Shown: in pieces, positions 8,633-26,925 of the stretch
Layout: each line of letters opens with the position of its first letter
Numbering within the stretch: the first letter of the stretch is position 1
From: an uncultured Clostridia bacterium
Lineage (GTDB): Bacteria > Bacillota > Clostridia > Christensenellales > Borkfalkiaceae
DNA length: 64,000 nt
Reading direction: 5' to 3'
Assembly (NCBI GenBank): GCA_947625555.1
Contig: CANQOT010000001.1
Span: forward strand, 1 to 64,000
Position numbers and translations under genes: made by a program
Notes under the pieces: generated by a model
The model's input: the letters and a program-made list of their open reading frames with translations, nothing else
Databases searched by the model: none
What the model was told of the DNA's origin: nothing

Positions 8633-8998
8633 GAATTTAGTATATTATATCCTTGCAAAACCATTCAAGAGAGAATCCCGCCCCAAATTGTTAGGAATTG
8701 TTAGTTTTACGACAACTTTCCCTAAAACGCGACATGGGGTGCTATAATGAAACGTGGCTATTTGTCTCGTCTACGCGCGCGATGAGCACGCGCGCGAGAG
8801 ATAGGCGGCGGTGAGGGTTTTACCCTCATTTCGAACCGCCGCAGGCCAACGCGTCATCCTGCCCCGCGCGCACTATTTTCTACTAAGCGCGGCACGAGCG
8901 CCAATGGCGCGAAGTAGGAGCGAAGCGACCGAAGGATCCCGAAGTACGCAGTCCGTACAAAAAAATAAATGATTATCTTGCGAAAAGAGGTGACTCGA
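8633..8998. other. 366-bp divergent intergenic region with promoter and repeat
   Basis: It separates the response regulator (-) from the giant MBG/YDG gene (+) and holds no gene. A plus-strand extended -10 promoter (TGCTATAAT at 8740-8748) has no good -35 box. After it come GC-rich inverted repeats (including GAGGGT/ACCCTC near 8812-8827). Next is the 36-bp repeat 8861-8896 shared with 310-345, then the ribosome binding site AGAGGTGA at 8986-8993. The leader of the giant gene is therefore about 240 nt and structured. Confidence 0.6.
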
Positions 8999-11900
8999 AT
9001 GACGAAGAACATGAAGAAAACGAGAAGATATTCGGTAGCGGCGCTAACGATGCTCCTTTCCGCGACGTTTGCATGCGGATTGGCGTTTTCCGACCGTGGC
9101 GGGCAGGGAGGCAGCACGCTCGAAGCTGCGGCCGCCGAGCTTTCGGTCACCAAGCAAGTTTTCGGCGACGGCACCACGGGCAACGGCGGCTTTACGCATG
9201 AGCATGTCAACGACATGGTCGGCAAGATCATCAACTGGAAACGCGTCAGCGGGACCACCTATTCTCGCACGGCTGGAGATATTGAAGATAATACGCTTTC
9301 CGTTGCGCGCGTAACGGACGGCGCGCCGCGCATCAAATATTTTGCAAGCGGTAAATCGGCGGTAGGATATTACATGGTTCCGGATAAAGGTTCCAAAGCA
9401 ACGATTTCGGATAGCGATTATACCCAACAGATCACAGATGCAAGTGTCACAAAGTACCTGAAATACGATCCGACGACAAAAGAGGGCTATTTCGTCGTCG
9501 GGAATGAGGGCGGCGGCGCAAGCAATTTTGAAAAAGCCTCGGCCTGGTCTGCCGCGATCAAACAAACATATACCAACGATTCGGACGTGATCAAGCAAGG
9601 CGCGGGGAATTATGCGAACGTTGCGGTCTATAACACCGTGCAGCTTTATGTCAGGGTAAAGATGCTTGAAGATTGGACTGCCACCCGCGGGGGGAAGGAG
9701 TACGACTTAGTAGAAAACGTTCCGACGGGTACATCGAAAGCGAACCATTATCAGCAAAATGCGGACGTTACGACCTTCGAAGTAATAGAAGAACAAGATG
9801 AAAAGGGAGAATCTAAGCCCAAGTTGCAAGCAAGCGGCGCAATTCAAGGGACAGAGGACGGCGCCGGAACACAAGTCAACGAACACGATCCGTTTACATT
9901 CGGGCGTCTCGGTATCCCGACAAAATCCTATGTCATTCTCGACTTGAACGGCAAAACGATCGACCGCGCCATGCCCGACAGCGGCGTGGCGAGGAACGTC
10001 GCGACGGGGAAGACGGGTGCAACGAATAACTATACCCACTCCTCGGTTTTCAACGTGGGTACATATGCGCGTTTTGAGGTCTACGATAGTACGGCGAAGG
10101 ACAATGAACCCGCGGGCTCGGGCAAGATCACGGGCGGCCGTACATGGGAAGACACAAACGGCTACAATGAAAACAACGAAAATAAGGGCGGCGCGATTCA
10201 TTTGGAGGTATATTCGGAAGTTACCCTGCACAGCGGCTCGCTTACCAAGAACGTCGCTTGGCTGGGCGGCTCTTTCTATGGTTTGACCCGTTCCGTATTC
10301 AACCTGTTCGATGGCGCGATCACCCAAAATTATGCGGGAAGCATGGGCGGCGGCACTTACTGCGCTTTGGATAGCCACATGGTGTTCAACGTCTACGGCG
10401 GCTTGATCGCCAACAACGCGGCAGCCAACCAAGGCGGCGGTCTTTGCGGGAATGGGGGGACTCATATTACGATCTATGGCGGCACCGTGACGGGGAATGC
10501 AGCGCGCGAGGGCGGCGGCATCCACGTCATGCAGAACAGCTACGTCAAATTTTACAACGGCAATATTTACGGGAATGCCGCAACGGGTGCAGGCGGCGGC
10601 GTCAACCTTCTCGGGACGGCGAAGGGCGTCTATATCAACGGCCCCGCGCGCATAGCCGAAAACTTCATGGTCGCAAAGGCAAAGGCGAAGGATAGCTCTA
10701 CCCCGCAGGGCAGCGCGGGAAACTTCAGCAATACCGCCGACCAGCAGGATTTTATCTATGCCCATAATATCAAGACACAGGATATCCTCGATTATAAGCG
10801 GGTGCAGAGCATTACGCTCCAAGACGACAGCGGAAAGCAAATGTCCCGCCCCGACGGTTCGCCCTATACGATAAACTTCGAAGAGGCGAGCAACCTCTAT
10901 CTGAACACAGGCCGCGCCAAAAACGACACAACGAACAATCCCGGCAATCTTGATTATGCCGATATCAAGGTGGAAGGGCCTTTGAGCGTAGGCGGCAAGA
11001 ATGCCGAGATCTACGTCTCGCCCGCCTCCGGGCAAGCGGGCAACCGCTACGGCCGCATTATGCGCGGCTTTACCCAGTACGGCTACGACGATAACAACAA
11101 CCAACGCAATACAGGCAAAGACGACGTCGATAATTGGAGCGGCACAGGCGGCGGGGCAGGCACATGGGATCATGAGCCGAGCGGCGTGGATAATTACAAT
11201 TACACCGCCTATTTACGCGATCAAGACGTCAGTTACTACTTCAAGACGGACAACGGTGCCGACCTTGTCGAAAAGCAGTATGATAACGGCCCTTGGGTCG
11301 AGATCCTCGACCTTACGCATTCCCGCACGGCCGACGTGCATTGGCAGTACCGCACATTAAAATCGGGTTCGCCCGACGAAAACGGCGACGCCACTTGGGA
11401 TTGGACAAACGAATGGACGGACGTACAGCCCGAATACACCTATAACGGCAAAGTCAACTGGCTCGAAGGCGTCAGGCTCATCTATAACAAGTTCGACCAG
11501 ACCAACGGCTCCAACTACGATCAGATGCGCACCTACATCGTGAGCTTGCAATATGTCGATGGCAAGTACCAATTCCAGTACACCATGACCTATTATGCGC
11601 TGAAAGCGGGTAAGACAACGAGCAAGGACGCGAACGATTACGATACAAGCAAGCCCAAGGACGGGACGATCGCCTCGACGGCCGTAGGCGGATATTTCGA
11701 CGTCAGCGTCGAATATTTCCTGCAAGCGGGAAGTTCGTCCGAAAAGACAAAAACGTTTACCGACGACCTCGTCTCAAAGGACGCGGGCACCTATACCTTC
11801 GCCATCAGTCAGGAGGCCATCGGCGACGGTTCGGGCGCCATGTTCAGCCGTTCGGATATCATCACGCAGAGCAGCATCTCCTTCATCGTCAACCGCCTCG

Positions 11901-14900
11901 GTTTGACCGTGACGGGCGTCGAGATCACCAAGACGTACGACGGCAAGATCGACGTGACGGACGACCTCAATACCGCATACACAAACGGGGATATCAACCC
12001 CACGATCGCGGGCGGGCTCTTGTATGAACACCGCAACGCGGTCTCGATCGTCCCCGCCAAGGATAGCGTCAAGACCTTCTCGGACATCATTCTCGATAGT
12101 CCCGACGTCGGAACGCATATTTCCACAAAGTTCCCGCAGCTCGAAGTCGCCTTGCAAGATAATAACGGCGGCGATACGATCTCGCGGAATTATACCGTTG
12201 CGGGAGACCTTTCGAATATCACTGTCATCATCACGCCCGCCGTGCTCCAAAACGGCACCGAAGGACATACCGGGGGGGGTACCCCTTATTGGACCCTCAA
12301 AGGCGGTGTAGAGGGCGGCATATGGAGCTTTAATTCAGAGAAAAATGCACTTCTCGCGACCTACACGGGTCAGCCCATCAATCCCGAGCTCGAGATCCAC
12401 GGCCTCGAAGCCCAAACGGAAAAGAAAGCGGACGGCAGCTTCACGACGCGCCAAGATAATGTCATCCTCGAATACCAGGGCACGCAGACCAACGCCAACG
12501 CCGATAAGGACGGCAACCTTCTCAAAGACAAGGCTGCCTACACCGTCACTGCCAAGATCACGACGGCCTACCAAGGCTCGAACTATGTTTTCGAAGGGGG
12601 CGATACGACCTTCACCTTCCCCTTCTATTTGAAGCAGAAGGAACTCACCGTCAACGAATGGACGGCGAGCGGCAACATTTGGAAAGAACATACCGCGACG
12701 AGCGGCAGCTACATCTATGACGGAACAATATTCACGGCCGCGTCCGTTGAGGGCAACCTGACGCCCACCTTCACGGGGCTCACCGAGGTAGACAGCGCGC
12801 CTTCCTTCACCCTCGCCCTCACTGCGGAAAACAGCAAGACTTCCCACGCGGAGAACACCTACACCGTCACGGTCAACGCCATCACCGATGCGCCCAACTA
12901 TTACCTTGGCAATGGCGGCGCATTTGCCGTCACGATCGCCAAGCGCGAAGTGAAGGTGCTCGTGCACGAGCTCACCGATACCTATGCGGGCGAGAAATAT
13001 CTCCTCGATACGACCACAGGGCTCAAACAGGGCGTCCAACTTGCCGACGTATTCGGCACCGTGGACTCCAACCCCAACTCCACATGGCAGTACGCCGACG
13101 ATACTCCCAACCAATTCATCGGCACCGACAGCAGCGAGCTTTACTTCTACCTCGCTGGCACAACAGAAGTGCCCAAGGCCAAGCCCACCGCAGGGGAGAA
13201 GTTCGCCGTCCCGGGTACATACTACCTTTGGTGCACCTTCGCCGAGGGCAAGGACCTTGCGGGCGACTACTCTGTCACCTTCGAAAAGGGCGAAAGCGGC
13301 GGCGGCGACCCGCAACTTACCATAGAGCCCGCGACGGCCGAGGTCATTTCGGCGGATTGGCAGCTCTCCAACGGCTTTGCCGCGGACGGCTACAAGGTGA
13401 ACATCACCGAGGAGATCAACGCAAATTACAGCTGGATGCGCTTTAAGGGCGACGTCAAGTATAAAGAGAATATCGACGGCAAGTCCTTCCAAGTCACCTA
13501 TACTTTGGAGCCCACGGCTCAACAGAAGCAAGGGACCGATTACACGGTGGACGGCAGCGGCATCTACACCGTCATAACCGTCGGCACCTACACCTTCACC
13601 GTCACCGTCGAGGCGCCCTATCACAATACGATTACCCATAAACTCCTCGTCTACATCTCGCAGGAGCACGTCACCGTCACCTTGAAGGAAGAGGACATAA
13701 CGTTCACCTACGGCGGCGAAGGTCTCTTGCAGAGTGGAAACGACATCTCCACGTGGCTTCTTAACTTGTTATTCAATACGGATCATATCGAGAGCATCAC
13801 GGGCTTCACCAACCACGAGATGGGGCAGGACGAGGGGCAGGATGGCCCCGCCTCCATTGCCATGGAAGCGGTCGAGAGCCTCGAACAGATCATAGAGAAG
13901 CTCCGCGAGCTCGTCACGCTCTCCTTTACGGGCGATAACAGCGCGCTGTTTAGCGGCGCGGGCTACCTCAAAGCGGGCAGCTACACCGTGCATATCGCCT
14001 TCAAGGGCGACACTTCGGGCGATACCAAGAACCGCACCATCACCTTCGTCAATGCGGCGAATAAGATCGTCGTCACCCCCAAGACCCTTACAGCGAGCGA
14101 CATCATTTGGGTGGAAACGGGCAACGGCTGGTCGGAAGAGGGCGGCAAGCTCTCCCACACCTATTCGGGCATTGCTTCCATTGCCCTTGGCAACTATCCG
14201 AAGGTGAAAGAGGGCGGCAACGCCTTTACAGGCGATAAATTCAACGAGAGGGGCATCTCCGCCTTCATCGAGGCCCAAGAAGAGGGCGCATGGGTCGCGC
14301 ATACGGGCGTCTGCCACGTCGGCACGACGTACCGCATCTACATCAGCGATTCCAACCCCGGCGGCGCGGACGGCGCGAACTACACCTTCGACCCCGCTGC
14401 CTTGGCAAAGGAATTTTCCATAAAGCCGCTGGCGATCACCTTAAAGCTCAAAAACTTTTCCGACGTCTACGGCAACACGCACCCCGATTTTGGGCAGACG
14501 CTCGAACTTATCAACCACTTCGATTATTCCGGCGCCAAGTTCGCCGAGGGCGATAACATCGGCCTTCTCAACCTGCAACTTGCCTATGTCGATACGATAA
14601 CCAATGCAACCGCGGTCGGACACTATGCCGTCAAGGCAACATGGAGCAACGCCGATTATGCCGTGACGTTCACGGATGAGAGCGGAACCGCGGCCACGGG
14701 CGAAGCGGATTGGTGGAAGCTCGAAGACATCTTCGAAATCACACCGCGCGAGATCGAGATCGTCTGGGAGGCCGAAGATAGCTACACCTTCAACGGCATT
14801 GATCAGAGCGGTGCGGTCAAGGCGCACTACGTCGACGCAGTCGATGGAGAGAGCACCCACGCCCTCGCCGTCACCTTCTCGGGCAAGGGCACGCAATTCC

Positions 14901-17900
14901 TCAACGCGGGCGGCTACACCGCCACGGTCGCCTTCGCGGGAGGGGATACGGGCAGCTCCAACTACGCACTTCCCTCCGACTACACGCGGGAATTTACGAT
15001 GGCGAAGATGTCCGTCTCGGTCGTTTGGGACGGGACATACACCTACAACGGCACCAATCAAACAGCGGCCCTTCGAGCGCACTACCTGACGTTTGATAGG
15101 CAGTCTGCCGCGCTTACCGTTACGCTCAAAGACGCCAGCGAATTCAAGAATGCGGGCGATTACAGCGTGACCGCTGACTTCAAAGCGGATGACGGGCAGA
15201 GCGGCAACTACGAGCTCACCGATACGACGCACACCTATACCATGTCCCGCGCCAAGGTCACCGTTTCGGGGATCACGGCAATCGACAGGATCTACGACGG
15301 CACCACTTCCGTCAGCCTCTCCTTCAACGGTGTGAAGTTCGAGGGCCTTATCGATGGCGACGAGCTCACCCTTTCCGCCGTCGGCGAAATGAACGATAAG
15401 GACGCGGGCGAGGGGAAAGCGGTCACCGTTTCCGGCCTTTCTTTGAGCGGCAAGAGCCACCTCAACTACGAGCTCGCAAATGAGGAATATTCGGAGAGCG
15501 TGACCGTCAACATCACCCCGCGCACGATCTCTATCTCGGGGATCACCGCCAAAGACAAGACCTACGACGGGACGACGGCAGCCACCTTCGACATGAAGGG
15601 GCTTACATTCGAAAACCTTCTGCCCGCCGAAGAAGCCCGCTTTACGGGCGATGGCGCAGAAAAATACGTCACCGTCGTGGTGAAAGGCGCCTTCTCCGAT
15701 AAGAACGCGGGGGTGGGCAAGGTCATCACCGGCCTCACATTCTCCCTCGAAATCAACGAGGCGGGCCAAGCGGAGGGCTTCAAAGCGGAAAACTACACCA
15801 TTCTCACGACGGTGCAGGGCCTCACGGCGACCATTTCTCCCGCCGAAGTGACGGTAACAGGCGGCGTCGTCGCAGAGGAAAAAGTCTACAACGGCACGAC
15901 GGATGTGCAGCTTAATGGCGGCTCGCTCGTGTTCCAAGTCACGGGCAAGGAAGGGCCGGGCCTCTACGACGGCGATTCCCTCACCGTCACGGGTAGGGGA
16001 ACCTTCGATGATAAGAACGCGGGTAGCGGAAAGACTGTCAAAATCACAGAGCTTGTGCTTGGCGGCACTTCCGCCTCCAACTATACTTTGGCCGAGAGCG
16101 GGAACCAAGCCGAGACGACGGGCACCATCACCCAAAAGCCCGTTGCCGCGAACGAGATCGTTTGGCCGAAGCTCACCTTCACCTATTCCGCGCTCGATCA
16201 AAGGGACGCAATCCAACCCTATTTCGAGGGCGTAGCGGCCGATGGGCGCATCTACCTCGCCATCGTCATAGAAGGCGACAAGTTCACCGATGCGGCCACT
16301 TACACCGTTCGGGCGACGCTCAAAGGCGTAGAGGGCGGCGAAAATTATACATTCAACGCCGAGGATTATTCGCACCAATACACGATCGCCCCCTACACGG
16401 TCGAGATCGAGTGGACGGAGTGGAGCGAGGAACAAGCCACGTTCAACGGAGAGGAAAAGTCGGTCACGGCGACCTTCCAACCCCTCGAGAAGGACGCTGA
16501 CCTCGTCACGCTGACGGTAAAGATTACGAAGACGGGCACGGGGGAAGAAGTGGTCCTTCTCAACGCAGGGACCTACACCGCGACGGCCTCCTTCGGCGAT
16601 ACGTCGGGCGGCACGTCGAACTACACGTTGGATGAAACTTCCCTTACCCACACCTACATCATCCAAAAGGCCGAGTTCGTCATCGAGACGGACGAAGGCA
16701 AGACTTATACCTTTAACGGAACGGCCCAAGGCGATCCCATCACCGTCCAAGGCGTCGAAGGGGATAAGAACTTCCCCGAAGAGGTCACGATATCCTATCT
16801 TTCCAACTCGGGCAACCATAACGGCATCAATGCGGGCGTTTACGAGATCGAGTACCTCGTCCTCGGAACGGAGAACTACAAAGAGGCGCGCGGCACCTAT
16901 ACGTTCACCATCGAAAAAGCCGAGATTGTTGTCACGGTAGAGAGTAAGAGCTACGAGTATAACGGCGAAGCGCAGGGCAATGCGGCCGTCATCGGCGAAA
17001 CGCCCGATACGCATTACACGGTTGTATATACCTACAAATACACGCCGAACGTAGAGGGCCATAGCGAGGGCACGGTCACAGCGCCTCTATTCATCGAAGC
17101 GGGCCAATACGCGGTCACCGTCACCGTCTCGGGCTCCAACTACGTCACCAATGAGCAGCATTACACCATCACGATCGAGCGCGCCCAAACGGGGCACACC
17201 GTGCAAAGCGAGCTCCACTTCAACTATACCGGCGCACAGCAGACGGCGACCCTTTCCGATGCCGTCATCGGCGCGGCAAGCGAGCTCACCTATGCCCTCA
17301 AAGAGGGGTCAGTGCTTCCCGAGGGCGCATCGTTTGATGCCGCAAGCGGTACGTTCACCTTCAAGAACGTCGCCGAGGGCAACGGCGTCGTGTTTACGGT
17401 CACCGTCAACGCGGATAACAACCACGAGGCGGCGTCGGGCGATGTGAAGATCGTCGTGAACAAGGCGGCGGCCTCCCTCGATACGTCCCATATCACGGCG
17501 GAGTACACCTACACGGGAGAAGTGCTTGAACTCGACCTTACAGAAGAGGGCCTTCTCAACCACAGCGAGGGCGCCGCACTTTCCTATACCGTCGGGGAAG
17601 GCAAGACCATCAAGAATGCGGGCATTTATTCCGTCACGATCACCGCGGCGGCAACCGACAACTATTTGAATGCAGAGGCCACCGTCAGCATTACAGTCAA
17701 CAGGGCAACGTTCGATAAGGTGGAAGATCAGACCTTCGTCTACAACGGGACGCCGCAGGGCGATGCCATCGTCCTCAAACTCAACGGGAAGCCCGTAGAC
17801 GTCGCGGCGGAGAACATCACGATCCGCTATAACGGCTCCGAAACGCCTCCGCAATACTCCCTCGTCAATGCCAACGCCTTTGTCGTCAACTTCACGGCGG

Positions 17901-20900
17901 AGGGCGCCAACTTCGTGACGTACGAGGGCAGCTACACCATCACCATTACGCCCGGCACGCTCACCGTCTCCGCACCGACAAAAACAACGTACACCTATAA
18001 CGGCGCCCCCGTCGATGCTTCGGCCACCGTCGAGGCGATCGACAACAGCTACGAGCTCTCCTACGATGTGACCTATTCGCCTCTCGAAGGCGGGCACGAA
18101 GCGGGCACGATCGAAGGCGCACACTTCACCGAAGCGGGCGAATACAAGGTCACCGTGACCGTCTCGGGCAACAACTATCACAAGGCGACGTGTTCCTACA
18201 CCGTCACCATCGGCAAGGGGGAATACACCGTCGAAAACAGCGAGAATGCGACCTTCACCTACAACGGGGAGTTGCAGGGCGGCGAGGTACGCGTCACGAC
18301 GCTTACGGGCAGCGAACAGGAAGTCGTCTACACGGGCGCACACACTTTCCGAGATGTCTCCAACAACACCGTTCAATGGAGCGTCGCGGCGGATAACAAC
18401 CACAACGCCGCGAGCGGAAGCTATACCGTGACGATCGTCTGCAAACAGTTGACCGTCTCGGGCTATTCCGTCTCGGGCAAGATCTACGATAAGACCACTT
18501 CCGCAAACGTCGTCGGCGGCTTCCTGCAAGGGGTGTGCGGAGGCGACGGTGTCTCCTTCACCATTTCGGCCGCGTTCGAAGATGCAAATGCGGGCAATGC
18601 GAAGCCCGTCACCGTCACCATCGAGCTCACGAACGACGAGGCGGGTAACTACACCTTCGGCGAAGAGGGCGCAAAGCGCGTCACCAAGTTGACCGCCACC
18701 CTCACGGCGGATATCGACAGAGCGCTCCGCACGATCGATACCGAAGGCGTCCTGACGGAATACACCTATAACGGGCAGGAGCAGACGGTCGATCTTTCGA
18801 GCGTCACCTACACGGGCCGGGAAGAAGGGGGCGGCACGCTCACCCATACGAACAACACCTTCACGAACGTCGTCGAGGGCAACGGCCTCCTCATCGAGGT
18901 GCAAGTCAAGGGCGGCAAGAACTACCTCGACGCCGTCGCCTATATCACCCTCACCGTGACGCCTCAAACCCTCACCGCTACCCTCAAAGAGCGGACGAGG
19001 ACGTTCACCTACGACGGCACTCCTCACGGCGGCGAAGAGATCGTCACCGTCACGGGCGGCACCGTCTACGTTAAGGACGAAGGGCAGGTGTTCGCATACA
19101 TCGTCGACGGCGGCAGTCCCTACCTCGAAGTTCCCGCCTTTACCGCGGGCACGCACACCGTCGAAGTGCGGCCGCGCAACGAAAATTATCACGTCGACTT
19201 TGCGGACGGCAACAGCCAATACACCGTGCAGATCGAAGTCGCCGAAGTCGTGGTGCAACTCGTCGTCGATCCCTTGCTTCGCGGCAGGGCGCGTGCGGCC
19301 GACCTCGTCTATAACGGCGGCGACCATGCGAGCGGCTTCTTCGAAGATAACTTCCGCGTCACGCTGCGCGGCGAGCCCTACACCATCGACCAAAAGAACT
19401 ATCTCGTCACATGGCGTTCGGCCGAGGGCATCGTCGGGCTCAATGCCATCGACGCGGGCGACTACACGCTCGTCCTTTCCCTCCTCGGCGAGGCGGCGGA
19501 GAACGTGCGCTTCAAGGAGGACGCCCGCTACACCGTCGAGGGCACGACGCTCACGTGGAACGGTCCCACCCTGCACATCGAAAAGGCAGCCCTCACCGTC
19601 ACCGCCCCCGCGGATATCGAGACCTATTACGACGGCACCCTCTACGGCGGCGAGGCGAACGTGCAGGTCTTGGGCCTCGTTGCGGGCGACGAGGGCTACA
19701 CCCTCGAATACAGCTCCGACGGCGAGAACTTCTCCACCGAAAAGCCCGTCTTTATCAATGCGGGAAGGCACACCGTCCACTTCCGCATCGCGGCCCGCAA
19801 CTACACGGCCGAGGGCGGCAGCTATCTCATCAATATCAAGAAGGTGCACCTCACGCCCACGCTCAACGAGGGGAGCTATTCTTACCGCGGCTATGCCTAT
19901 TCGCCCTTCGACGTCTGGACGCTCAAAGCCGAACAGGGCCGCAACCTCCTCACGACGGACGATATCGCCGTGACCTACACCTACACCTCCGTCGCGGGCG
20001 TGGCGGGAAGTGCGACCTCCCTCCTCAACGCGGGCACCTATACGCTCGGCGTCGAACTCTCGTCGGAGAACGCCATCACGAACTACACCCTCGGCGAGGG
20101 CAAGCTCGTCATCACGATCGCACCCGCCGAGGTGGATATCTCCGCCCGGCGCGAGATCACCTACCGCGAGAGCGGCTACGAGGTCGGCGAGGTCGTGCGC
20201 TTCATTTCGCAGATCCCGACGACGGGCGCCTTTGTGCTCCGTCTCGAAGGGGCCGACCGCATCCTCGACGCGGGCGAATACACCGTCGTGGTCGAACCCG
20301 TGGGGGATGCCGCGAACAACTTCGCCTTCACGGCAGAGTCGATCGCGATCGTCGTCGATCCCGCCGAAGTCTATGTTTGGTCGGACGGGGATCTCACCCG
20401 CACCTACGACGGCAAGGACCATTTGAGCGAGGCGCGCGTCACCGTCACGCGGCGGGATAACAGCGTCGTCGTCGATCCTTCGCTCTACGACGTCGCCTAC
20501 TACATGCTCGTGGGCGGGGAGCGCGTTCTGACGGACGATATCGTCTCCGCGGGCGACTACAACGCCGTCGTCACCCTCAAAGATACCAGAAATTACAAGC
20601 TCACGGGTGCCATGAGCACGCGCATCGTCATCACGCGCGCGGTGTTCGGCCTCGTCGAAGGGTACGAGGACACCTACAACGGCGCCGCCGTCGATCCCGC
20701 CGTCCTCGTCGAAAGGGAAGAGGGCGCGCCCGAACCCGAGTACACCGTCAGCATCAAGCGCGACGGCAAGACGGTCGAAAGGATCTGCGATGCGGGCTTC
20801 TACACCGTCTACTTTACGGGCGGGCCGAACTTCCTCGCCTCGGTGCCCTTCGTCTATGTGACCATCGGGCAGAGGACGCTCACCGTCGGCGAAGTTCCCT

Positions 20901-21736
20901 TCAAGGAGACGACGCGCGTCTACGACGGCACGACGGACGTCACAGCCCTTCTCGCTTCGTCCACGGTGCTCGCAGACGGCGCCGCAGACGAAAAGGTGGA
21001 AGTTGCCGTTTCGGCCGCCCTCGCCTCCAAGGACGTCGGCGCACAGAGGGCCATCCTCACCTTTGCCATCGCCGATCCCAACTATATTTTAGATGAAGCG
21101 CGCGCGGCCGAGCTCTTCGGCTCCATTCTCATCACCGTGACGGCAAAGCCCGTGCAGGTGCTCTACAACGAGGATTCCGTGAAGAAGGGCGGGCCGTTCT
21201 CGGCGACTTCCAACGATTTTGTCCTCGGCGACGATGTCAAGCTCGTCTACACTTCGGATGATTCGGGCAACACGATCGTGGCCGAACTCTCCCTCGAAGG
21301 CGCAGACGCGGGCAACTACACCCTCACCGAGACCAAGGTCGTCATTCCGCTCCGCCTGCTCGAAAACAAGTGGATCGTGGAGTACTACCGCGCCGATTGG
21401 AAGGAGGGCAGAACGCCTTCCGAGGTCGTCGATGCGGTCGCGCAGTACGGCGGCGTCGCTTCCGTCAGGTACTACACCGACGAAGCCTGCACCACGGAGA
21501 TCTCCGAAGAGGAACTCAAAACGGCCGCGGCGGGCACCTATTACGCGAAGTACACCGTCGAGAGAGGGGACTACTACGAGGGCATGTTCGGCGTCTCCTC
21601 CTTCGAGATCTTAAAGGCCGATCCCGATATGGGCCTTCCGATCATTCTCCTCATCGTCTGCGCGGTGCTTCTCGCGACGCTCGTCACCGTCGTCGCAGTC
21701 ACCAAACGCAGAAAGCATAAAAAGAACATTCAATAA
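8999..21736 (+). CDS. Giant surface protein: beta-helix, ~32 MBG/YDG repeats, C-terminal anchor
   Basis: The 4,245-residue protein begins with a signal peptide (basic MTKNMKKTRRYS, then ~18 hydrophobic residues). An N-terminal region has Pmp-like beta-helix repeats at about 370-580, with recurrent GGG-I and YGG-x-V-x-GN motifs. From about residue 970 to 4,130 there are roughly 32 units of MBG or YDG type, each starting with a Y-[DN]-G core such as TYNG or YDGTT. At least five are clear YDG units (for example RIYDGTTSV, KTYDGTTAA, RVYDGTTDV). It ends with a single hydrophobic helix and the basic tail KRRKHKKNIQ; no LPXTG motif is present. It is probably a very long adhesin-like stalk held in the membrane. 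The start at 8999 is supported by AGAGGTGA; an in-frame start at 8969 lacks a site. Confidence 0.88.
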   Translation: MTKNMKKTRRYSVAALTMLLSATFACGLAFSDRGGQGGSTLEAAAAELSVTKQVFGDGTTGNGGFTHEHVNDMVGKIINWKRVSGTTYSRTAGDIEDNTLSVARVTDGAPRIKYFASGKSAVGYYMVPDKGSKATISDSDYTQQITDASVTKYLKYDPTTKEGYFVVGNEGGGASNFEKASAWSAAIKQTYTNDSDVIKQGAGNYANVAVYNTVQLYVRVKMLEDWTATRGGKEYDLVENVPTGTSKANHYQQNADVTTFEVIEEQDEKGESKPKLQASGAIQGTEDGAGTQVNEHDPFTFGRLGIPTKSYVILDLNGKTIDRAMPDSGVARNVATGKTGATNNYTHSSVFNVGTYARFEVYDSTAKDNEPAGSGKITGGRTWEDTNGYNENNENKGGAIHLEVYSEVTLHSGSLTKNVAWLGGSFYGLTRSVFNLFDGAITQNYAGSMGGGTYCALDSHMVFNVYGGLIANNAAANQGGGLCGNGGTHITIYGGTVTGNAAREGGGIHVMQNSYVKFYNGNIYGNAATGAGGGVNLLGTAKGVYINGPARIAENFMVAKAKAKDSSTPQGSAGNFSNTADQQDFIYAHNIKTQDILDYKRVQSITLQDDSGKQMSRPDGSPYTINFEEASNLYLNTGRAKNDTTNNPGNLDYADIKVEGPLSVGGKNAEIYVSPASGQAGNRYGRIMRGFTQYGYDDNNNQRNTGKDDVDNWSGTGGGAGTWDHEPSGVDNYNYTAYLRDQDVSYYFKTDNGADLVEKQYDNGPWVEILDLTHSRTADVHWQYRTLKSGSPDENGDATWDWTNEWTDVQPEYTYNGKVNWLEGVRLIYNKFDQTNGSNYDQMRTYIVSLQYVDGKYQFQYTMTYYALKAGKTTSKDANDYDTSKPKDGTIASTAVGGYFDVSVEYFLQAGSSSEKTKTFTDDLVSKDAGTYTFAISQEAIGDGSGAMFSRSDIITQSSISFIVNRLGLTVTGVEITKTYDGKIDVTDDLNTAYTNGDINPTIAGGLLYEHRNAVSIVPAKDSVKTFSDIILDSPDVGTHISTKFPQLEVALQDNNGGDTISRNYTVAGDLSNITVIITPAVLQNGTEGHTGGGTPYWTLKGGVEGGIWSFNSEKNALLATYTGQPINPELEIHGLEAQTEKKADGSFTTRQDNVILEYQGTQTNANADKDGNLLKDKAAYTVTAKITTAYQGSNYVFEGGDTTFTFPFYLKQKELTVNEWTASGNIWKEHTATSGSYIYDGTIFTAASVEGNLTPTFTGLTEVDSAPSFTLALTAENSKTSHAENTYTVTVNAITDAPNYYLGNGGAFAVTIAKREVKVLVHELTDTYAGEKYLLDTTTGLKQGVQLADVFGTVDSNPNSTWQYADDTPNQFIGTDSSELYFYLAGTTEVPKAKPTAGEKFAVPGTYYLWCTFAEGKDLAGDYSVTFEKGESGGGDPQLTIEPATAEVISADWQLSNGFAADGYKVNITEEINANYSWMRFKGDVKYKENIDGKSFQVTYTLEPTAQQKQGTDYTVDGSGIYTVITVGTYTFTVTVEAPYHNTITHKLLVYISQEHVTVTLKEEDITFTYGGEGLLQSGNDISTWLLNLLFNTDHIESITGFTNHEMGQDEGQDGPASIAMEAVESLEQIIEKLRELVTLSFTGDNSALFSGAGYLKAGSYTVHIAFKGDTSGDTKNRTITFVNAANKIVVTPKTLTASDIIWVETGNGWSEEGGKLSHTYSGIASIALGNYPKVKEGGNAFTGDKFNERGISAFIEAQEEGAWVAHTGVCHVGTTYRIYISDSNPGGADGANYTFDPAALAKEFSIKPLAITLKLKNFSDVYGNTHPDFGQTLELINHFDYSGAKFAEGDNIGLLNLQLAYVDTITNATAVGHYAVKATWSNADYAVTFTDESGTAATGEADWWKLEDIFEITPREIEIVWEAEDSYTFNGIDQSGAVKAHYVDAVDGESTHALAVTFSGKGTQFLNAGGYTATVAFAGGDTGSSNYALPSDYTREFTMAKMSVSVVWDGTYTYNGTNQTAALRAHYLTFDRQSAALTVTLKDASEFKNAGDYSVTADFKADDGQSGNYELTDTTHTYTMSRAKVTVSGITAIDRIYDGTTSVSLSFNGVKFEGLIDGDELTLSAVGEMNDKDAGEGKAVTVSGLSLSGKSHLNYELANEEYSESVTVNITPRTISISGITAKDKTYDGTTAATFDMKGLTFENLLPAEEARFTGDGAEKYVTVVVKGAFSDKNAGVGKVITGLTFSLEINEAGQAEGFKAENYTILTTVQGLTATISPAEVTVTGGVVAEEKVYNGTTDVQLNGGSLVFQVTGKEGPGLYDGDSLTVTGRGTFDDKNAGSGKTVKITELVLGGTSASNYTLAESGNQAETTGTITQKPVAANEIVWPKLTFTYSALDQRDAIQPYFEGVAADGRIYLAIVIEGDKFTDAATYTVRATLKGVEGGENYTFNAEDYSHQYTIAPYTVEIEWTEWSEEQATFNGEEKSVTATFQPLEKDADLVTLTVKITKTGTGEEVVLLNAGTYTATASFGDTSGGTSNYTLDETSLTHTYIIQKAEFVIETDEGKTYTFNGTAQGDPITVQGVEGDKNFPEEVTISYLSNSGNHNGINAGVYEIEYLVLGTENYKEARGTYTFTIEKAEIVVTVESKSYEYNGEAQGNAAVIGETPDTHYTVVYTYKYTPNVEGHSEGTVTAPLFIEAGQYAVTVTVSGSNYVTNEQHYTITIERAQTGHTVQSELHFNYTGAQQTATLSDAVIGAASELTYALKEGSVLPEGASFDAASGTFTFKNVAEGNGVVFTVTVNADNNHEAASGDVKIVVNKAAASLDTSHITAEYTYTGEVLELDLTEEGLLNHSEGAALSYTVGEGKTIKNAGIYSVTITAAATDNYLNAEATVSITVNRATFDKVEDQTFVYNGTPQGDAIVLKLNGKPVDVAAENITIRYNGSETPPQYSLVNANAFVVNFTAEGANFVTYEGSYTITITPGTLTVSAPTKTTYTYNGAPVDASATVEAIDNSYELSYDVTYSPLEGGHEAGTIEGAHFTEAGEYKVTVTVSGNNYHKATCSYTVTIGKGEYTVENSENATFTYNGELQGGEVRVTTLTGSEQEVVYTGAHTFRDVSNNTVQWSVAADNNHNAASGSYTVTIVCKQLTVSGYSVSGKIYDKTTSANVVGGFLQGVCGGDGVSFTISAAFEDANAGNAKPVTVTIELTNDEAGNYTFGEEGAKRVTKLTATLTADIDRALRTIDTEGVLTEYTYNGQEQTVDLSSVTYTGREEGGGTLTHTNNTFTNVVEGNGLLIEVQVKGGKNYLDAVAYITLTVTPQTLTATLKERTRTFTYDGTPHGGEEIVTVTGGTVYVKDEGQVFAYIVDGGSPYLEVPAFTAGTHTVEVRPRNENYHVDFADGNSQYTVQIEVAEVVVQLVVDPLLRGRARAADLVYNGGDHASGFFEDNFRVTLRGEPYTIDQKNYLVTWRSAEGIVGLNAIDAGDYTLVLSLLGEAAENVRFKEDARYTVEGTTLTWNGPTLHIEKAALTVTAPADIETYYDGTLYGGEANVQVLGLVAGDEGYTLEYSSDGENFSTEKPVFINAGRHTVHFRIAARNYTAEGGSYLINIKKVHLTPTLNEGSYSYRGYAYSPFDVWTLKAEQGRNLLTTDDIAVTYTYTSVAGVAGSATSLLNAGTYTLGVELSSENAITNYTLGEGKLVITIAPAEVDISARREITYRESGYEVGEVVRFISQIPTTGAFVLRLEGADRILDAGEYTVVVEPVGDAANNFAFTAESIAIVVDPAEVYVWSDGDLTRTYDGKDHLSEARVTVTRRDNSVVVDPSLYDVAYYMLVGGERVLTDDIVSAGDYNAVVTLKDTRNYKLTGAMSTRIVITRAVFGLVEGYEDTYNGAAVDPAVLVEREEGAPEPEYTVSIKRDGKTVERICDAGFYTVYFTGGPNFLASVPFVYVTIGQRTLTVGEVPFKETTRVYDGTTDVTALLASSTVLADGAADEKVEVAVSAALASKDVGAQRAILTFAIADPNYILDEARAAELFGSILITVTAKPVQVLYNEDSVKKGGPFSATSNDFVLGDDVKLVYTSDDSGNTIVAELSLEGADAGNYTLTETKVVIPLRLLENKWIVEYYRADWKEGRTPSEVVDAVAQYGGVASVRYYTDEACTTEISEEELKTAAAGTYYAKYTVERGDYYEGMFGVSSFEILKADPDMGLPIILLIVCAVLLATLVTVVAVTKRRKHKKNIQ

Positions 21737-24047: not shown

Positions 24048-24847
24048 ATTCACAAATTTTGTTTTGCGCAGGGGAACCCTCCTCATTCCGAGGCCCCTAA
24101 GGGGCCGAGTGAATCTTTTCATACGCAGTCCGCAAGAGCTGCCCCCAAGGTGGGGAAGCCTTTCCTCATTCCGAACCCCTAAAAGGGGCGAGTGAATCTT
24201 TTCCCACGTACGCCCAAGTACGCTCCCTTCGGAAATGCTCCTTCTCCTTGTCTCGCTTGCAACTCTGCGATTTGACGGGGAACCCGTAAGGGTTACCCGT
24301 CATTCCGAACCCGCGAAGCGGGTGAGTGAATCCCCTTATACGCAGTCCGAAAGCCCCCTCCATGGAAGGGGGGTAGGGGGGTGGGGTGACCTGCCCCTGT
24401 TTACGGGGTCGCAAAACGCAGTTCTGCGCAACGGCACAGTGTGCCGTGCGCTGCGTTTTGCGGTGAGTGAGCGCATCGGAAGGCGCGAACGGTGACCGAA
24501 CGCGGGGCTCTACCCGCGTGAGAAGGTGGCACGGCGAAGCCGTGCCAGGTGGGGGCCTTGCCCACCCCTCGAGGGGTGGGTGTCACGCCGCGTGCGGCAT
24601 GACGGAAGGGGTGTTCGCAATCGAAAGCGACACCCCCTCAGTCTCGGCTTTGTCTCGACAGCTCCCCCTCAAGGGGGCGCCAAGAGAACACGTCCCATCT
24701 ACTTTGCCTCGTTTGCTCCTCCCACGGAGGAGCCTTTTTTCTTGTTCTTTTTTTGTCCATACCCCCCCCAATTTCGCTCAAATTATATAAATTTTGCCTG
24801 TGGAAAAAAAATTTTTGCAAAAAATTAAAAAATTTTTCAAAAAAGTC
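24048..24847. repeat. 800-bp gene-free block of palindromic repeats
   Basis: No gene is supported. The block holds three 32-bp hairpin elements (24084-24115, 24167-24198, 24301-24332). It also holds a GCCCCCTCCAtgg-type hairpin (24353-24390) and a composite repeat (24556-24687) that recurs at 33541-33658. A C8 tract (24762-24769) and an A/T-rich stretch follow, leading to the next promoter. These are small non-coding intergenic repeats; none encodes a transposase. Confidence 0.75.
24084..24332. repeat. Three copies of a 32-bp hairpin element
   Basis: Copies at 24084-24115, 24167-24198 and 24301-24332 share CATTCCGA at the start and GAGTGAATC at the end. The stems between differ but still pair (GCCCC/GGGGC, ACCCC/GGGGC, ACCCG/CGGGT). 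Confidence 0.8.
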
Positions 24848-24874
24848 TTGACAAATGGACGGGGGGGGTACAAT
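24848..24874 (+). promoter_or_regulatory. Promoter with a G8 tract in a 15-bp spacer
   Basis: TTGACA at 24848-24853 and TACAAT at 24869-24874 are separated by only 15 bp, eight of them a run of G (24861-24868). Other clear promoters in the window have 17 bp. Confidence 0.65.
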
Positions 24875-24880
24875 ATATGA

Positions 24881-24897
24881 TGTCATAAAAAATGACA
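24881..24897. promoter_or_regulatory. Candidate operator TGTCAT-N5-ATGACA
   Basis: A perfect 6-bp inverted repeat lies just downstream of the -10 box. TGTCATA also occurs twice around the -10 box of the 37807 gene. Confidence 0.35.
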
Positions 24898-24921: not shown

Positions 24922-26925
24922 ATGAACAAAAAGAGTTGGCTCATTGTGGGATTGTCGCTCGCAATGGCCGCAAGCATCGGCGTGGGCATCTCTGCCTGCG
25001 GTGGAAAAGAACCCGACACCCCGCCCACCCCCACGGACCACACGCACACCTACGACGCGTGGGACTACAACGAAACGCAGCACTGGAAGTATTGCGACGA
25101 GCACGGGACGGACAAGTCCAACATCGACGAGACCACGCGCGAGGACCATATTTTCACCAACGGCACTTGCGAATGCGGCATGAAGGAAGCGGACGTCACC
25201 CCCGACGAGGGCCTCGACACGCGCGTTTTTTACGTTGTAGGTTCGGGCGCGGGCGACCTCAGCAAGTGCAGCTTCACCGAACTTAAATCCAACTTCATGC
25301 TCACCAAGCAGCCCAAGAAGGACGAAAACGGTTACACCGTCTATACGACTTCCATTTTAACGCTCTATACGGGCGACACGATGAAAATTGTGCAGGATCT
25401 CGACTGGGACGAAGGCCTTGGCTACTTCGGGGTCTCCAACATCAAGAACAACGACGGGTCGCTCGTTGACGGCGGTGGGCCGGGCAATATCACGCCCGCA
25501 GTGGGCAAGGACGGCAAGTATCGCTTCACCGTCCGCACAAAGCCCGATATTACATTCTCTGAATGTACGCTCGAGTTTGAATTCATCGAGGCTGTAGAAC
25601 CGCTCAAAAATACAGCGCAGATCTATATCGTCGGCAATCTGCAATACTGCGACACCAAATGGCCGAGCGGCACGGATGTCACGGGCTGCAAAAAGCTTGA
25701 CTACGACGAGGCAACGGGCGAATGGAGCATTACGCTTCGTTTAGGGCGTGCTCCGGGAGAAATAGGCGGCGATGAATTCAAACTCTATAATTCCGTCAAC
25801 GGCGCTTATATCCCCGACGGCGTAAATAATAACAAACAATACGGTGCGAACAATGCCGGCGATTACAAAATCAGTTGGAAAACGGGCGAAACCGACATCA
25901 CCTTCACCAAGCTCGAGCATACCCATGTCTTCGACCGTCAGACGAAAGACGATACACAGCATTGGAACATCTGCTGGCTTGATGATACCGCCGACGAGCA
26001 ATCCCGCGAAGGTCACGTCTACACCGACGATCAAGATAGCAAGTGCGACACCTGCGGTTACACGCGTCATATACATAGCTTCACCAAGCAAAACAAGGAC
26101 GAAACACAGCACTGGATGGAATGTCCCGCAGACGGGACGATTTCTCCCGAAGGAAAGATCGACCACGTCTACGACCAAGAGGGCGGCAAGTGCGTCTGCG
26201 GTGCGGAGAAGGCGGACGACTGCGCCCACGACGGGAAGATCATCTTTGATTATATGGGAGATACTCTGCCCGCAGGGGCCACGGCCGGCGGCACGATCAC
26301 GGGCAAGTGCGAAAAGTGCGGCAATCCCATCGAAGTCTCTTATGACAAGTATGTCGAATTTGCCGCAAGCGTTCCGATGTCCGGCGACCCGCTCCCGCCC
26401 GCAGTCATGGAGAACGACAAGAAGTATTACGGGAAGATCACAAGCACAGCGAGCTCAAGCTATGGCGGCGCGTATTTGGGTTATAAGATCGAAGCAGCGG
26501 GGACTCTCACCGTGACGATGGACGTCGTTTGCAGTTGGCAAAAGAATGCGGCAGGGACGGCTGACTTCGCAATACGCTATATGGCGATCGTCGATACGCC
26601 GCTCGAGACCGGTCTTAAATCAAGCGGAATTAAAGACATTATCAGTAAGAGCCAATGGAATACAAGCAGTTCAAAGACTGAAAAAGTTGCGAAGTGGAAG
26701 GAGCAAATTACATTTGACACGACGCTCGGCGAGGCTTTCCACAGCATAACGCTTACCTTCACAGAGGAGGACGTCGGTCAGAATGTGTACTTCCTCATCA
26801 CAACGAACATAAACATGATACTCACCAATTCCGCGTTCCTGTTCGAGACGTCCTTCTCGCCCGCCGCGGCAGCCGCTACCGTCGCTCCGCAGGAAGTCGC
26901 AATGCTGCCCGAGAAGAAGGACTAA
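24922..26925 (+). CDS. His/Cys-rich lipoprotein with starch-binding-like modules
   Basis: The 667-residue protein has a lipoprotein signal with lipobox ISAC (Cys26), so it should be anchored on the outside of the membrane. A Pro-rich linker leads to repeated short modules that begin with HTHTYDAW, HTHVFDRQ or HIHSFTKQ. Each has a following HW..C and ends in a C-x-C-G type pair, which suggests metal-binding knuckles. Two segments (about 90-205 and 215-330) with VFYVVGSGAG and IYIVGNLQY look like SusE/SusF-type starch-binding folds. The C-terminal ~180 residues are unrecognised. The start is set by GGAGGAAA (24911-24918). It is flanked by repeats and transcribed alone. Its knuckles match those of the broken lipoprotein at 31760. 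Confidence 0.8.
   Translation: MNKKSWLIVGLSLAMAASIGVGISACGGKEPDTPPTPTDHTHTYDAWDYNETQHWKYCDEHGTDKSNIDETTREDHIFTNGTCECGMKEADVTPDEGLDTRVFYVVGSGAGDLSKCSFTELKSNFMLTKQPKKDENGYTVYTTSILTLYTGDTMKIVQDLDWDEGLGYFGVSNIKNNDGSLVDGGGPGNITPAVGKDGKYRFTVRTKPDITFSECTLEFEFIEAVEPLKNTAQIYIVGNLQYCDTKWPSGTDVTGCKKLDYDEATGEWSITLRLGRAPGEIGGDEFKLYNSVNGAYIPDGVNNNKQYGANNAGDYKISWKTGETDITFTKLEHTHVFDRQTKDDTQHWNICWLDDTADEQSREGHVYTDDQDSKCDTCGYTRHIHSFTKQNKDETQHWMECPADGTISPEGKIDHVYDQEGGKCVCGAEKADDCAHDGKIIFDYMGDTLPAGATAGGTITGKCEKCGNPIEVSYDKYVEFAASVPMSGDPLPPAVMENDKKYYGKITSTASSSYGGAYLGYKIEAAGTLTVTMDVVCSWQKNAAGTADFAIRYMAIVDTPLETGLKSSGIKDIISKSQWNTSSSKTEKVAKWKEQITFDTTLGEAFHSITLTFTEEDVGQNVYFLITTNINMILTNSAFLFETSFSPAAAAATVAPQEVAMLPEKKD

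Follow-up and report, generated by a model that had tools for sequence, protein, structure and literature searches.

An earlier note on the DNA analyzed here had referred to tracts in promoter spacers as a known means of switching surface genes. Precedents are porA of Neisseria meningitidis and tp0126 of Treponema pallidum (PMC7864442). In porA, a poly-G tract is located between the -35 and -10 elements, and a spacer of 17 bp is reported to be optimal (van der Ende 1995, as cited in PMC2791445 and PMC7864442); in the account given in the latter source, transcription is lost once the 17 bp spacer is reduced (PMC7864442). The T. pallidum tp0126 promoter performs best when its poly-G tract brings the spacer to 17 bp, and the tprL tract of the same organism, which overlaps the -10 element, is mostly G9, with a range of G7 to G11 (PMC7864442). 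The Vlp proteins of Mycoplasma hyorhinis are described as variable surface lipoproteins encoded by a multigene family (reference cited in PMC11868660), and in the gut commensal Bifidobacterium breve, replication slippage in a G tract controls a surface structure, the pilus (PMC9187656).

The window analyzed here, a stretch of 64,000 nucleotides from an uncultured Clostridia bacterium, encodes on its forward (+) strand a lipoprotein of 667 aa (24922-26925; lipobox ISAC, sequence MNKKSWLIVGLSLAMAASIGVGISAC). As read from the sequence, the predicted promoter of this gene, on the same strand, consists of the -35 hexamer TTGACA (24848-24853; 6/6 match), a 15 bp spacer, AATGGACGGGGGGGG (24854-24868), the last eight bases of which form a G8 tract (24861-24868), and the -10 hexamer TACAAT (24869-24874; 5/6 match). 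The earlier note had described the same arrangement, and its coordinates and bases proved exact on re-reading. A scan of 16-18 bp spacings yielded no better -10/-35 pair nearby on this strand. G8 runs as such are not rare (3 in the window, with 3.7 expected); what is rare is the position inside a promoter. An in-frame G8 run (12272-12279, encoding Thr-Gly-Gly-Gly-Thr) is present in the ORF at 8969-21736, the gene for a putative surface protein of 4255 aa, and slippage in this run would cause a frameshift.

The surroundings of the promoter contain several further elements on the forward strand. A terminator-like hairpin identified by a pattern scan (24715-24733), with an 8-bp stem that includes 6 G-C pairs followed by the T-run CTTTTTTCTT, separates the upstream gene from the lipoprotein gene, and a C8 run (24762-24769), which is C6 in several paralogous copies, lies between this hairpin and the promoter. 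The -35 hexamer is abutted on its 5' side by an A/T-tract-rich stretch (24780-24847) that resembles an UP element and might function as one. Just after the -10 hexamer, close to the predicted transcript start, there is an inverted repeat, TGTCAT-AAAAA-ATGACA (24881-24897), the arms of which are constant across the copies read while the loop varies in length and sequence (AAAAA, AAAA, TATAA, ATAA and CGCAC were seen, as well as UUCG in the paralog on contig C27); this pattern suggests a possible 5' mRNA hairpin or an operator. A short leader with the Shine-Dalgarno sequence GGAGGAAAG precedes the ATG at 24922. The intergenic region at 24061-24340 contains repeats of the type CATTCCGAACCC..GGTGAGTGAATC.

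When the window's own genome (1,646,589 bases in 41 contigs; 99% complete) was searched with the promoter pattern, the 27-bp promoter was identified 11 times, each time ahead of a paralogous lipoprotein gene whose product starts with MNK(K/Q)xWLIVGLSLAMAA. The -35 hexamer is the same in all 11 copies, the A/T-tract-rich stretch is conserved in them as well, and the block that comprises the promoter, leader and signal peptide shows a mean pairwise identity of about 0.8-0.95, with lower values on either side. The spacer is 15 bp long (G8) in eight copies and 14 bp long (G7) in three, so that none is found at 16-17 bp. The -10 hexamer comes in two versions, TACAAT and TAATAT, each of which occurs with both G7 and G8, implying at least two changes in tract length unless the -10 versions themselves recombined. 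The 11 copies, the window promoter among them, share with porA-type phase variation a homopolymer of at least 7 bases between the -35 and -10 elements, and the lipobox of the window gene marks its product as surface-exposed or secreted. As in Vlp-like systems, the genes encode paralogous lipoproteins with a common 5' region and signal peptide and with divergent bodies.

The window protein belongs to a family with mosaic C-terminal modules and has the C-terminal tail common to that family (..APxEVAMLPEKKD or ..QEVALPASKKED among the paralogs). The modules in front of the tail differ, being of the LRR_5 or an unknown type, as if they had been swapped between family genes, and the window protein has 67 matching stretches in its own genome, mostly within paralogous lipoprotein genes. 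A Pfam search with the window protein detected no family and a PDB profile search nothing meaningful; its AlphaFold model, with a mean pLDDT of 48, is too poor for a fold search. Further paralogs of the family have promoters that are unrelated to the cassette, usually with a spacing of 16-17 bp. One family copy with a G7 promoter (L069, C14:32115) carries an in-frame TGA precisely at the codon of the lipobox cysteine.

We consider it probable, at roughly three chances in four, that the G8 tract acts as a contingency-locus switch, operating by slipped-strand phase variation inside a sigma-A-type promoter. Slipped-strand mispairing would alter the number of Gs and, with it, the distance between the -35 and -10 hexamers. 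With a 17 bp spacer, that is, with G10 at this locus, RNA polymerase would be expected to engage the promoter efficiently; a 16 bp spacer (G9) would allow partial use, and spacers of 15 or 14 bp (G8 or G7) poor use. Because all 11 sequenced copies are G8 or G7, the sequenced consensus would correspond to the weak or OFF state. With the same 5' cassette placed ahead of at least 11 paralogous surface lipoproteins, independent slippage could lead to the display of different combinations on different cells. We infer that the number of Gs governs transcription, that a single clone can switch in both directions, and that the variation serves display.

The spacing of promoters at large provides a reference for this interpretation. 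Among ordinary promoters of this genome, with perfect TTGACA and TATAAT hexamers and free of G6 runs, the spacer is 17 bp long in 63 of 81 (78%) and 16-18 bp long in 76; in genomes G097 and G029, 72% and 78% of the ordinary promoters, respectively, are at 17 bp. The previous statement that every other promoter here has a spacing of 16 or 17 bp is thus broadly right. Promoters with G8 or longer tracts show a different distribution: among 127 distinct promoters from the genus, only 11 (9%) are at 17 bp compared to 78% of the ordinary ones (Fisher P = 3e-25), with 27 at 15 bp, 28 at 16 bp, 20 at 18 bp and 24 at 19 bp. When tract lengths were shuffled among the flanks, 20.7 promoters were expected at 17 bp (P = 0.004), indicating that this spacing is avoided beyond mere broadening of the distribution. 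The same pattern was observed in other genera, with 5 of 53 distinct promoters at 17 bp. Shorter G6-7 tracts combined with TATAAT are found at 17 bp in 9 of 18 cases among the matches listed, and C runs behave in the same way (19 of 25 at 17 bp for C6-7; 2 of 19 for C8+). Hence it is the length of the homopolymer, not its sequence, that matters for the loss of the 17 bp spacing. The most frequent tract length in this class of promoters is G9. Thus, homopolymers of a length that permits slippage mostly go with spacers that miss the optimum by 1-2 bp, even as both hexamers remain perfect; in a promoter that was never used, the hexamers should decay.

Activator-dependent promoters typically combine perfect hexamers with poor spacing, and MerR-type activators correct spacers of 19-20 bp. 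The G-rich spacers could, accordingly, be read by a dedicated activator or an alternative sigma factor that corrects the geometry, and the long upstream block and the inverted repeat near the start that are common to the 11 copies would be in line with such regulation. However, the spacings of the G-tract promoters scatter from 13 to 21 bp on either side of 17 bp, the position of the tract within the spacer varies, and C tracts behave like G tracts, all of which is more in keeping with changes in length than with recognition of a specific sequence. We therefore regard dedicated regulation as very unlikely.

Promoters with G-tract spacers are widespread in this lineage. The pattern TTGACA..G6+..TANNAT is present in 87 of the 103 genomes of the genus, and the stricter version with G8+ and TATAAT in 68 of the 103; the reversed patterns produced 0 matches in both searches. 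Among 301 genomes sampled from the family, G8+ promoters were detected in 9 of 18 genera, again with 0 matches in the control, and the C6 version of the spacer pattern was found in 36 genomes. A chance origin of the G-run promoters is ruled out by the reversed-pattern controls together with the C-tract comparison. When named genomes were scanned at the DNA level for the promoter pattern, it hit three contigs of one rabbit-derived uncultured Clostridia bin, the remaining matches being scattered over unrelated taxa and resembling chance hits. With this bin as the one named relative, the bacteria are apparently gut-dwelling and might be gut commensals. We found no report of such promoters from this lineage in the open-access literature searched.

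The genes behind the G-tract promoters are strongly biased toward surface proteins. A lipobox was detected in the next gene for 34 of 60 sampled G8+ promoters compared to 3 of 42 ordinary promoters of this genome (Fisher P = 2e-7), a contrast that is approximate, as a single genome supplied the controls and the lipobox was recognized by a simple pattern. A hydrophobic N-terminus was found in 46 of 60 and 17 of 42 of the next genes, respectively (P = 4e-4). The C9-tract promoters likewise precede lipoproteins. The same design is shared by numerous surface-protein promoters of the family that are unrelated to one another.

Comparison of close relatives reveals changes in tract length between flanks that are otherwise conserved. 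Loci of the sister genomes G180 and G295 that are 98.5% identical and encode the same lipoprotein carry G9 and G10 (18 and 19 bp), and equally similar loci (98.5%) of G001 and G055 carry G8 and G9 (16 and 17 bp). The spacer of a third lipoprotein gene is 14, 15 and 16 bp long in G001, G055 and G084, respectively, and that of a fourth is 13, 17 and 15 bp long in G079, G012 and G016. Length variation within conserved flanks is thus seen among paralogs (G7/G8) and between species at sister-species loci, where some of the one-base differences between assemblies may stem from errors in sequencing or in the consensus. A pair of near-identical promoters with G9 and G10 in G137 precedes different genes and was left out of the orthologous evidence. 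The proposal made in the earlier note, that slippage switches the promoter and that the sequenced form is weak, is supported comparatively by the G7/G8 paralogs, by the G23 and at least G17 tracts described below and by the differences of one G between sister species; at the level of the promoter class, it agrees with the avoidance of 17 bp despite perfect hexamers and with the strong enrichment ahead of lipoproteins.

Other tracts are stable. A similar promoter is present in G002 in 18 copies, all with 15 bp spacers, and the three copies in the sister species G005 carry G7 or G8 and so fall short of 16-17 bp, like the 11 copies here. A secreted-protein promoter, TTGACAACAA-G7-CGCTGTGATAAAAT, with a 19 bp spacer and a TGTG extended -10, is nearly unchanged in six species (L254-L259), so not every G-tract spacer varies and short tracts can be fixed. 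Such stability could mean that the off-optimum spacer simply keeps a constitutive promoter weak, with the G run as a rigid filler or a mutational by-product, and that no switching occurs in the population. This static explanation draws on tract lengths that hardly differ among the copies of a set (15 bp for 8 of the 11 here and for all 18 in G002), on the constancy of the G7/19-bp promoter and on the presence of mutS. It leaves unexplained why 17 bp is lost at G8+ and C8+ but not at G6-7 and C6-7, why shorter and longer spacings occur alike, why orthologous loci differ by one G, and why lipoproteins are enriched, and we deem it unlikely. With slippage as the preferred reading, the uniform G8 in large sets (G002 and G005) suggests either slow switching at this length or a preference for the OFF length; given that the mode of the class is G9, switching at the G7-G8 window promoter may be slow. 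Loss of mismatch repair as a cause is ruled out: a mutS domain was identified in 61 of 61 genomes tested.

When the G8+ runs of the genome were listed and their surroundings read, a second set of promoters ahead of the same lipoprotein family emerged, in which the spacer consists of G only. One internal copy, TTGACA-G23-TACAAT (C15:9575-9597; L270), is assembled through, and the family gene behind it is broken after about eight codons. Six contigs (C5, C7, C15, C19, C24 and C26) terminate within TTGACA-G17 to TTGACA-G26, and C21 terminates exactly at TTGACA. Matching downstream halves are contigs that start with GGCTACAAT or GGCTACAATAGATAATGTCAT.. ahead of family genes (C15 end, C3 end), together with C6, C8 and C30, which start at the initial codons of such genes. 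The contig breaks themselves show long G runs directly behind the TTGACA of the all-G set. They also bear on the possibility that homopolymer errors have distorted the tract lengths of the consensus and thereby created the bias against 17 bp: the assemblies come from metagenomes, two-colour instruments are prone to errors in poly-G, and the length of a G tract at a contig end is not reliable. Against such an artefact, the G run follows the conserved TTGACA in many independent assemblies, the tract is assembled through in most cases, and random length error would not empty 17 bp while leaving 15 and 19 bp filled in two separate sets of genera. Of the explanations considered, this one appears the least probable.

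On balance, we favor, with reservations, the broader view that slippage in poly-G spacers is a general, default-OFF mechanism of surface-lipoprotein diversification across this family, in which the flanks appear adjusted to place the usual G9 tract 1-2 bp off the 17 bp optimum and a single genome deploys a G7-G8 promoter set and an all-G set with G17 or longer ahead of one mosaic lipoprotein family. For a lineage that is known here only through metagenome assemblies of uncultured bacteria, these observations provide many candidates for phase-variable promoters, and a spacing off 17 bp only at long homopolymers is a simple genome-wide signature by which such promoters could be recognized elsewhere.

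The mechanism itself would be of a known kind. As in porA, a homopolymeric G tract lies in the promoter spacer of a surface-protein gene and its length sets the -35/-10 distance, but porA is a single gene of a Gram-negative pathogen with measured expression, whereas the system described here, known from sequence, combines a cassette ahead of a multigene lipoprotein family with many unrelated promoters across a bacterial family. The resemblance to tp0126 and the tpr genes of T. pallidum lies in the presence of several surface-protein genes with poly-G promoters, and the G9 of tprL is close to the modal G9 here; unlike in tprL, the tract is within the spacer rather than over the -10 element, and the tpr system belongs to a spirochaete in which length variation was measured directly. 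The Vlp genes of M. hyorhinis reportedly form a tight cluster, each being proposed to switch independently via a poly-A homopolymer in its promoter. A multigene surface lipoprotein family, a promoter homopolymer for each gene and proposed independent switching are features in common with Vlp, but here the tracts are poly-G and the genes are scattered over the chromosome. The tract of B. breve, in contrast, is in a coding sequence and switches the reading frame, whereas the present one is in a promoter spacer. What is new compared to all these systems is the lineage, the family-wide scale, the off-17 signature and the use of two promoter sets for a multigene family in one genome.
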